A stretch of 64,000 bases of DNA from Streptococcus suis (GTDB lineage Bacteria > Bacillota > Bacilli > Lactobacillales > Streptococcaceae): NCBI GenBank assembly GCA_024583055.1, contig CP102145.1, positions 558,001 through 622,000 on the forward strand, given 5' to 3'. Under the pieces are notes generated by a model, which ran no database searches, was not told the origin of the DNA, and worked only from the letters and a program-made list of their open reading frames with translations. The position numbers and the translations under genes are program-made. This document shows, one piece after another, positions 32,975 through 58,236 of this stretch (position 1 is its first letter; each line of letters opens with the position of its first letter).

Positions 32975-33030
32975 GGCAAAAAACCTCCTAATATATTTTT
33001 ACATGATTGTTTTTCACAGGAAAAACACTT

Positions 33031-33181
33031 AGAAGCTTTATTCACAAGCAAGGAACATTTAGACCAGAAAGTTTTTCTTATCAAGATAATTTCTTCAAGA
33101 ATACAAGATATTCTGAAAAACTAGGATGATTGACAGAAAACCAGTCATAGCCAAATGCACTGCTCTGTGAATACAGATTCC
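33031..33181. mobile_element. MITE-like element, copy 1 (degenerate), between arcT and arcD
   Basis: Left end AGAAGCTTTATTCACAAG and right end CTGTGAATACAGATTCC are inverted relatives of the family ends seen intact at 57980-58140. The interior keeps the CACAAG-AAGGAACATTT-type left border and the AATAC / TATTC hairpin region but has drifted. It fills most of the arcT-arcD gap, otherwise without a gene. No coding capacity. Confidence 0.65.
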
Positions 33182-33288
33182 TACATACAAATACACAGGC
33201 TGGAACAATCTTAGACTTAGAAAATAGATTTCTAAGCTAATCGCCAAGCCTTTTATCAAAAGAGGTTTGAGCAAGTAAATGAATAAAG

Positions 33289-35668: not shown

Positions 35669-36682
35669 TTACACTCTTGGCACAAATGGATCACCCAAGG
35701 TCGCAGCCATGACTGCTTTGATTGTGTGCATGCGGTTTTCAGCCTGGTCAAAATGACGAGCGTATTTGCTGCGAAAGACTTCGTCTGTCACTTCCATTTC
35801 TTCTACGCCGAATTTCTCAGCAACATCCTTGCCATAAACGGTATTGGTATCGTGGAAGGCAGGCAAGCAATGCAAGAAGATGAGATTTTCGTTGCCAGCT
35901 TTTTTCACCAAATCCATGTTAACTTGGTAAGGTTTGAGCATTTTCACACGTTCTTCAAACTTAGCTTCTTCACCCATAGACACCCAAACGTCCGTATAAA
36001 GGACATCTGCGCCCTTAACTGCTTCGTCCGCATCATCCGTAATCAGGATACGCGCGCCACTTTCCTTGGCAAATCCTTGCGCCAATTCCACGACTGTTTC
36101 ATCTGGGAAGAGTTCTTTTGGTGAGAAAATATGCACATTAACACCCAGAATAGCACCAGTCACCAAGAGAGAATTAGCAACATTATTGCGGCCATCGCCA
36201 CAGTAAACCAAAGTCACGCCTTCCAACTTACCGAAGTTTTCCTTGACGGTCAAATAATCGGCCAACATCTGTGTTGGATGCCAAGCATCGGTCAAGCCAT
36301 TCCAGACAGGTACGCCAGAGAATTCTGCCAATTCTTCGACCATTTTTTGGCTAAAGCCACGGAATTCAATCCCGTCAAACATCCGGCCCAAAACTTTTGC
36401 GGTGTCCTCAGTTGACTCTTTCTTGCCCAATTGAATGTCGTTGGCACCCAGATATTCTGGATGAGCACCCAGGTCAATGGAAGCTACTGTAAAGGCCGCA
36501 CGGGTACGAGTGGACGTTTTTTCAAACAAGAGAGCAATATTTTTCCCTTCCAAATAACGATGCGGAATATTGCGCTGTTTCAAATCCTTCAAGTGTGCCG
36601 CAAAATCAATCAACCATTCCAATTCTGCGCGTGTAAAATCTTTTTCTGCTAGGAAATGTCTTCCTTTGAAAATATTTGTCAT
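35669..36682 (-). CDS. arcB: Ornithine carbamoyltransferase, catabolic
   Basis: Phosphorolyses citrulline to ornithine and carbamoyl phosphate. 337 residues from [20 protein letters not shown]; upstream in-frame codons come from a MITE-like element and are not part of the protein. Carbamoyl phosphate-binding [12 protein letters not shown], then [20 protein letters not shown] and the ornithine-side [14 protein letters not shown]. About 130 bp separates it from the GNAT gene, almost all MITE-like sequence. Confidence 0.97.
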
Positions 36683-36698
36683 TTGTCTTTCCTCTTCT

Positions 36699-36816
36699 AA
36701 AAAGCTGTATTCACAAGTGAGGTAAATGTAGATAAGAGATAGTTTTTTGCTGGAATACTGACTGTATTTCATAAAAACTGCCTTAGTTCAGGTGCCGAGC
36801 TGTGAATATAGATTCT
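36699..36816. mobile_element. MITE-like element, copy 2 (short form), between GNAT gene and arcB
   Basis: Ends AAAAGCTGTATTCACAAG and CTGTGAATATAGATTCT, inverted and matching the family. The interior keeps GGAATACTGACTGTATTTC and GCCGAGCTG but lacks about 40 bp present in copies 3 and 4. The right end supplies the stop codon of the GNAT gene (36815-36817), and the left end abuts the arcB ribosome site region. Confidence 0.8.
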
Positions 36817-37264
36817 AATAATTGTCTAATCGTTTTGACAGGGTCTGGCACCATTCCCCATCTTCCTGGTAAAGCACTGAACTGGCCACATATCCCAAAG
36901 ACTCATAAAAGGTCTTAGCCGTCAGCTCCGAATGGATATCCAAGTGGTGAATACCTGCCTCTCTGGCATAGTCTTCCAGGGCCATGATGATACTTCTAGC
37001 ATAGCCCCCCTTACCCCGATGACTGGCCAAGGTAGCAATCCGTGTCAACCGCGCTCTCCCTGAACCTATTGGAAGAAAGCGACCAGTTGAGACAGGTTCT
37101 TCATCAATCAAGAGATTCGCATAGACACGTCCTTCTTGATCATGGCTATCAAATTCATCTTCGAGATGAATCGAGCGCTCCAGGACAAAAACTTGGAATC
37201 GCACATAGATGGAACATGCCCGTTCCCAGGCCTGCGAGCCGACCACAAGTTTTTCATTCTTCAT
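36815..37264 (-). CDS. GNAT family N-acetyltransferase within the arc operon
   Basis: 149 residues from MKNEKLVVGSQAWERACSIY; the start is 1 bp after the arcA stop, so translation is coupled. Acetyl-CoA loop RIATLASHRGKGGYARSIIM, and HLDIHSELTAKTFYESLGY near the C-terminus, of the ElaA-like type. Its TAG stop lies in the end of a MITE-like element, so its last few residues may be altered compared with uninterrupted relatives. A GNAT gene between arcA and arcB is the S. suis arrangement. Substrate unknown. Confidence 0.85.
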   Translation of the reverse strand: MKNEKLVVGSQAWERACSIYVRFQVFVLERSIHLEDEFDSHDQEGRVYANLLIDEEPVSTGRFLPIGSGRARLTRIATLASHRGKGGYARSIIMALEDYAREAGIHHLDIHSELTAKTFYESLGYVASSVLYQEDGEWCQTLSKRLDNY

Positions 37265-57669: not shown

Positions 57670-57708
57670 GGTTTCCTCACACAATTCTGGCGTCTATGAA
57701 CTGTTCTT

Positions 57709-57869
57709 TATAATCTGGACTCACAAGTAAGGTACATTTAGGTAAGCGATAATTTTTTGATAATTAGGACCGTTTTTTGAAGGAATACTGACTGTATTTC
57801 TAAAAAACTAACGATGAGTAGTAGAAAACTAGCCTTAGCTAAAAGTGCCGAACTGTGCGTACAGGTTCT
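57709..57869. mobile_element. MITE-like element, copy 3, upstream of rexB
   Basis: Left end is altered (ATCTGGACTCACAAGTAAGG), right end CTGTGCGTACAGGTTCT. Interior shared with copy 4: AAGTAAGGTACATTTA, AGGAATACTGACTGTATTTC, ACTAACGATGAGTAGTA and ACTAGCCTTAG-GCCGA. Same orientation as the other copies. It lies between the small RNA terminator and rexB. Confidence 0.82.
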
Positions 57870-57883
57870 TTTTCCATTATACC

Positions 57884-57908: not shown

Positions 57909-57979
57909 AAGGGCATCGTTTCCGATGAGGTTAGAAGGTTCACAGCATCTAACCAAGGTCCGCTCCTGCGTTTCAATTA

Positions 57980-58140
57980 AGAACCTATATTCATAAGTAA
58001 GGTACATTTATATAAGAGATAGTTTTTTGATAATCAAGGCAGTTTTTTGAAGGAATACTGACTGTATTTCTAAAAAAACTAACGATGAGTAGTAAGAAAC
58101 TAGCCTTAGATACATATGCCGAGATGTGAATATAGGTTCT
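57980..58140. mobile_element. MITE-like element, copy 4 (most intact), inside the small RNA
   Basis: 161 bp with ends AGAACCTATATTCATAAG and TGTGAATATAGGTTCT, inverted repeats of at least 14 bp. An internal inverted repeat AGTTTTTTGAAGGAATAC / GTATTTCTAAAAAAACT would make RNA across it fold into a long hairpin. No open frame, so it would need a transposase in trans. Target duplication not obvious. Confidence 0.87.
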
Positions 58141-58236
58141 ACATGAAGACCTCCCTAGCGTCGAATGTGACAAAGTCACTACTCGGCTCATCGCATGAAT
58201 CTATTCTACCATAATCTCAAGGATTTGCAAGCCTGA

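Follow-up and report, generated by a model that had tools for sequence, protein, structure and literature searches.

A probable MITE family with IS5-type ends and a hairpin interior in streptococci

A 64,000-nt stretch of the Streptococcus suis chromosome (hereafter the window) holds four short segments that resemble one another and raise the question of whether they are mobile DNA or members of a conserved RNA family. The initial annotation proposed that they are miniature inverted-repeat transposable elements (MITEs). Our analysis supports this interpretation with high confidence: the family very probably consists of non-autonomous MITEs that enclose a hairpin and whose ends are those of an insertion sequence (IS) of the IS5 family, IS1031 type, which presumably mobilizes them. 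This is an ordinary kind of element, a MITE with an IS5-family partner, but one with an unusual, structurally conserved interior. A literature search of limited depth yielded no publication that we recognized as describing the 159-bp element.

Four copies, their ends and their target

All four annotated copies were recovered on the + strand, at 33031–33181, 36700–36816, 57710–57869 and 57980–58140. Each scores far above background under a model called R2, with E-values of 1e-11 to 2e-36; the best background score, 20.7 bits, comes from a further 657 kb of fetched sequence, a large part of which was chosen for a word resembling the terminal inverted repeat (TIR). R2 was built from 14 diverse copies and has none of the four window copies in its training rows. 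An earlier model, R1, was built from 13 copies including three of the four, and its scores for those three are not independent. The copy at 33031 was not among the BLASTN matches when BLASTN was used alone. TIR-like 15-mers occur nine times in the window, against 1.9 expected.

The best copy has a 159-bp core (57981–58139, + strand) that folds over its whole length into a single hairpin (−54.4 kcal/mol, z −8.3; R2 score 157.4 bits). It is bounded by a left TIR, GAACCTATATTCATA, at 57981–57995 on the + strand and by a right TIR, GAACCTATATTCACA as read on the − strand, at 58125–58139. Inverted ends of at least 14 bp had been reported for this copy, and we indeed observe a perfect 14-bp inverted repeat; the TIR of the family is 15–16 bp. 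The left target triplet, TAA (57978–57980), is assigned from the sequence and from empty alleles in relatives, and the right triplet, TAC (58140–58142), is interpreted as the duplicated TAA with its last base altered; neither triplet is given a strand. A second full-length copy (57711–57868, +, 137.7 bits) lies 110 bp to the left and is flanked by TTA (57708–57710) and TTT (57869–57871). An internally deleted copy (36701–36815, +, 65.6 bits), which lacks about 44 bp of the interior, has identical TAA flanks (36698–36700 and 36816–36818) and is located between an acetyltransferase gene and an ornithine carbamoyltransferase gene. The diverged copy (33032–33180, +, 56.6 bits) is flanked by TTA (33029–33031) and CTA (33181–33183) and separates a gene for a DcuC/YfcC-type transporter from an aminotransferase gene.

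The interior segment described as common to the copies, GGAATACTGACTGTATTTC, is present in three of the four, and the 33031 copy has diverged there. The uniform orientation holds throughout, as every copy is on the + strand and the open reading frames (ORFs) on both sides of each are on the − strand. The placement between genes holds in general, with the reservation that the 36700–36816 copy overlaps the predicted start of ORF 35669–36772. Because matches of this ORF to ornithine carbamoyltransferases start only at residues 33–39, the real gene probably begins beyond the copy. Across the streptococcal copies, 6 of 45 overlap an ORF of at least 90 amino acids by more than 30 bp.

The streptococcal element as a whole reads GAACCTGTATTCACA, about 129 bp of interior, and TGTGAATACAGGTTC, with a core of 159 bp. 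An A and a T that border the element could be mistaken for end sequence; they come from the target, a TNA triplet present on each side. This was established with 48 non-orthologous insertions, collapsed from 61 full-length places and including three from viral contigs (L060, L067 and L073); the set excludes reverse-strand duplicate rows as well as copies that are short, broken or interrupted. The triplet is TNA on the left in 40, on the right in 37 and on both sides in 29 insertions, and in 25 of these 29 the two triplets are identical. In 39 of the 48, the two triplets have the same middle base, compared with a permuted mean of 21.4 and no equally high value among 20,000 permutations. An earlier set of 35 insertions, short copies included, gave 25 agreements against 15.2 expected. 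Target duplications of 2–39 bp were tested as longer alternatives and none was found. Several copies lie directly after an intrinsic terminator; a loose test for such terminators as a preferred target revealed no enrichment (23 of 94 flanks against 677 of 3,000 TNA sites).

Dispersal, occupancy and a probable partner insertion sequence

R1 finds 26 distinct places in the 2.19-Mb genome at E-values up to 0.001, with lengths of 49 to 176 bp; the underlying 38 rows include reverse-strand duplicates, and the weakest places rest on rough E-values. The element is patchily distributed, being present in 50 of 284 streptococcal genomes. Copy numbers from this survey, and from a survey of 398 Bacillota genomes described below, are lower bounds, as strict filters were used with at most 10 and 7 candidates per genome, respectively. 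Three very short TIR-like pairs of 35–49 bp with hardly any interior were also paired by eye in the home genome (G000:C1 287676–287710, 694395–694443 and 1778964–1779010), and are perhaps end-to-end deletion products.

The initial annotation had held that copies fixed at the same sites in all strains, with no empty alleles, would speak against mobility. Instead, occupancy varies, and the copies differ in site and in neighbours. We searched 31 related genomes, picked from the 50 element-bearing ones, with ten joined flank pairs as queries. Among the matches listed, at least 24 of the 31 have an empty 57980 site. At base level, 17 of 28 fetched loci have a contiguous join that retains one TAA (TTAAATG in 4, CTAATG in 8 and TTTAATG in 5), and genome G023 has a small deletion at the join. 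The 1231629 site is spanned in five loci, each with three to seven extra bases, and sites 1307424, 1598616 and 819424 are spanned at 71–76% identity only. In all, empty joins were seen for five of the ten queried sites, and the other five were not clearly spanned, among the matches listed. Some insertions are old and shared, as one is filled in six genomes (L004, L035, L036, L043, L044 and L038). Filled and empty sites could be used as typing markers. About 23 bp to the right of the empty 57980 site, extra DNA occurs in loci L442 and L443 (G674 and G669) and also in G671, G670, G022 and G014, amounting to about 155 bp in G669; that in L442 and L443 has no R1 match.

Plasmid records gave no match to the elements beyond weak ones judged to be chance. 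Among phage records there is one copy, in S. suis phage phiJH1301-2 (L021:3001–3162), which has the same flanks as a chromosomal copy of this genome (L023); a cat gene is present in the same stretch of phage DNA.

Through IMG/VR contigs in which the 15-mer lies close to the ends, we reached a fragment of an IS5-family transposase. Its relatives, as named among the 120 listed of 872, come from Kingella, Neisseria, Wielerella, a Roseburia metagenome-assembled genome and Streptococcus pluranimalium. Homologues of the partner transposase carry PF13340, among the matches listed, and the transposase belongs to the IS5 family; the viral-contig fragment itself scores 81.9 bits against NF033580 (IS5 family transposase), below the cut-off of 110, with only an orfA piece as the query. 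A search with the S. pluranimalium protein located the IS in 13 of the 284 streptococcal genomes. The full-length transposon with the same ends whose existence the MITE proposal called for is therefore present in related species. It is 811–812 bp long in 13 of the 20 copies scored with both ends, and is flanked by TNA on both sides in 19 of the 20, identically in 12. In one example (L326), both ends equal the exact 15-mer and the IS has ORFs of 87 and 147 amino acids.

As far as the published account of the IS1031 subgroup extends here (PMC12016507), its members are marked by ends that start with GAACCTGT and by a 3-bp TNA duplication, and both features are found in this family. The subgroup member ISLrh has the inverted repeat GAACCTGTCTAGTATCT and a 3-bp TNA repeat, and it carries orfA and orfB, just as the partner IS carries two ORFs. 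In contrast to ISLrh, the element has no transposase, its 130-bp hairpin interior is unrelated and the remainder of its TIR differs.

The dispersed copies, the TNA duplication, the empty sites and the IS with the same ends together sustain the MITE interpretation. Under this model, the transposase of an IS5-type IS would recognize the 15-bp ends of the element, which would then be excised or copied and inserted at a TNA triplet, with duplication of that triplet. Mobilization would thus occur in trans, by the partner IS. In the home genome, no inverted pair of IS size was seen among TIR-like sites with three or fewer mismatches, and the partner protein (P0052) was not found; PF13340 was absent from all eight element-bearing genomes tried. 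With no partner found there, the home-genome copies look stranded, presumably left by the past activity of an IS now missing from this genome. Given 13 genomes with the IS and 50 with the element, chance alone would place the two together in about 2.3 of the 284; they co-occur in 4 (G443, G445, G484 and G562).

The TIR alone is shared; when the interiors of three streptococcal copies were compared with that of the IS, shuffled sequences matched just as well. For the viral-contig element L067, about 29 bases of the interior match that of the IS (score 29 against a shuffle mean of 19, with 0 of 200 shuffles as good). A DDE_Tnp_4 fragment, L061 (G022:C1:482022–482330), was considered as a partner and rejected. 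It is an IS5-type transposase fragment with a match to NF033581 below the cut-off, and its streptococcal relatives have TTA-like flanks. Its intact relatives, which we take to be IS1515-like, have ends that read GACTTGTTCGGTAAC, and L061 therefore belongs to another IS.

A hairpin maintained by compensatory changes

The interior is a long hairpin maintained by compensatory changes, and not a shortened IS gene. In 14 diverse copies, 93.4% of the cells form pairs. Changes on both sides of a pair occur in 29 of 54 pairs, compared with 12.3 in shuffles and at most 16 in slid versions; counted by cell, the values are 68, 17.1 and at most 26. Because the alignment was fitted to the structure, these counts are biased in its favour.

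The hairpin is also asymmetric between strands. Of the two, the + strand gives the more stable fold in 46 of 48 copies, with a mean gap of 13.2 kcal/mol; the exceptions are L368 and the window copy at 33031 (L026). The same asymmetry is seen with DNA energies, and so does not separate RNA from single-stranded DNA. Under symmetric scoring, the 48 copies contain 275 G-U pairs and 140 A-C mismatches; G-U predominates in 38 copies, A-C in 5. Measured against the consensus in 46 of these copies (155–165 bp), changes of any frequency comprise 118 G-U and 80 A-C (p 0.008), and changes private to one copy comprise 4 G-U and 11 A-C (p 0.12), with no pairing preference. Selection in spreading lineages followed by decay once a copy is inserted is an unproven reading of these counts. 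We infer that the hairpin matters for the spread of the element and not for the host at each site.

Copies between tandem genes are antisense to those genes in 26 of 36 cases (p 0.011), as are all four in the window; the test covered 45 places, 43 of them with genes on both sides, and used longest-ORF calls in place of annotation. This bias would be consistent with selection that disfavours the stable strand within messages, with replication direction not separated from it.

The same hairpin between other ends

Some elements on IMG/VR contigs agree with the streptococcal one in ends, size and TAA flanks but have very different arms (L067, the same element being present in L083 and L099, and L073), and two similar ones (L065 and L291) are cut by contig ends. 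The L067 form was not found in phage records. In addition, R2 detects the hairpin in four of 398 Bacillota genomes besides the home genome, with six copies in G109 and one each in G391, G415 and G348. These score 48 to 83 bits against the best background of 20.7, with rough E-values of 1e-16 to 4e-8. The strict TIR pattern, searched over the same 398 genomes, occurs in the home genome only. All nine distant copies (L454–L462, element from 1501 to 1652–1666) are 152–166 bp long and fold better on the strand chosen by the model, with 53 G-U pairs against 29 A-C mismatches. By eye, their basal stems are unlike one another (for example, GTACTCTGTAACACTTAA in L455, GGGCGTGTCTAAAAACTC in L456 and CACTGTTAACCCTAATTC in L457), and each of the six copies in G109 has its own basal stem, some running into the flanks. 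Most of 16 aligned elements nevertheless hold in common the motifs ATTTT, AAGGC, AATACT...TGTATT and AACG; L073 is an exception at the tip and L456 at AACG. No match to the core of these distant forms was found in viral contigs.

The hairpin, its strand asymmetry and its relatives beyond Streptococcus are additions to the initial annotation. The hairpin may be a module of its own. More tentatively, and with the odds somewhat against it, we propose an independent, structure-conserved module of about 100–160 nt, that functions on one strand, either as RNA or as single-stranded DNA, and is packaged between the ends of different transposons or in arms made anew at each site across Bacillota. The streptococcal MITE would be one such packaging, and the module would owe its spread to a factor, from the host or a transposase, that recognizes its internal loops (CAAGGC / AACG) and its AATAC...GTATT tip.

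These structural features bear on what the family is. A strong hairpin with covarying pairs, one strand more stable than the other and relatives in distant genomes are what would be expected of a conserved, immobile host family of non-coding RNA genes, whether paralogous small RNAs or cis-regulatory hairpins. That explanation is very improbable, being largely refuted by the empty sites; TNA duplications, patchy presence, private changes that show no pairing preference and the mostly antisense position of copies between tandem genes also disfavour it, as does the lack of any Rfam match above the gathering threshold on the elements, in the window and in relatives. At least as improbable, and in our estimate slightly more so, is identity with RepSU1, the BOX-type repeat of S. 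suis, which in the published description available to us has modular length (PMC3049150). The four copies align to a BOX sequence no better than shuffles do, and a BOX end is absent from the window, with a BOX sequence used for both comparisons in place of the published RepSU1. BOX-like ends do occur elsewhere in related loci, once within an interrupted copy (position 1621 of L058). Such ends, as judged by the same BOX sequence, lie inside or beside the copies L058:1501–1662 and L392:997–1157, as would result from insertion of one repeat into the other.

A further explanation is compatible with the MITE reading and concerns the hairpin alone: palindrome arms could be kept matched by template switching or gene conversion, as a by-product without function. 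Two-sided changes would then arise without selection, and private changes would show no pairing preference, as observed. What this leaves unexplained is the excess of G-U over A-C, both in the 48 copies and in the nine distant ones, and the internal-loop motifs common to most of the 16 elements with different arms; the counts are partly inherited and not independent. We consider this by-product explanation unlikely but a good deal more credible than either immobile RNA genes or RepSU1.

With the family read as MITEs, its place among known repeats can be outlined. It is short, non-coding, dispersed and multicopy, with terminal inverted repeats, target duplication and variable occupancy. The RUP element of Streptococcus pneumoniae is a MITE of about 100–160 bp linked to IS630-Spn1, and is thus alike in size and in having an identifiable IS type, but differs in IS family and target. 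BOX and RepSU1, of S. pneumoniae and S. suis, are likewise small dispersed streptococcal repeats that fold as hairpins; as far as their published description indicates (PMC3049150), they are modular, whereas the present element is one module with deletions and has no similarity to the BOX sequence used here. ERIC sequences of enterobacteria and Correia elements of Neisseria are described, in the account consulted (PMC10969869), as dispersed MITEs of many species whose transcripts can be cleaved by RNases. Set against that description, two features distinguish the present element: the agreement of its ends with a known IS type, and the occurrence of its inner hairpin between ends of other kinds.

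For a repeat family carried by 50 of the 284 sampled streptococcal genomes, this provides an identity, ends, a target and a likely driver. If the hairpin is a module common to elements with different ends, selection on small mobile DNA acts on something besides the ends, and the question of why bacterial MITEs retain stable hairpins becomes testable. In G109, copies of the hairpin lie, as judged by eye, near genes that resemble smpB, dnaA and dnaG.
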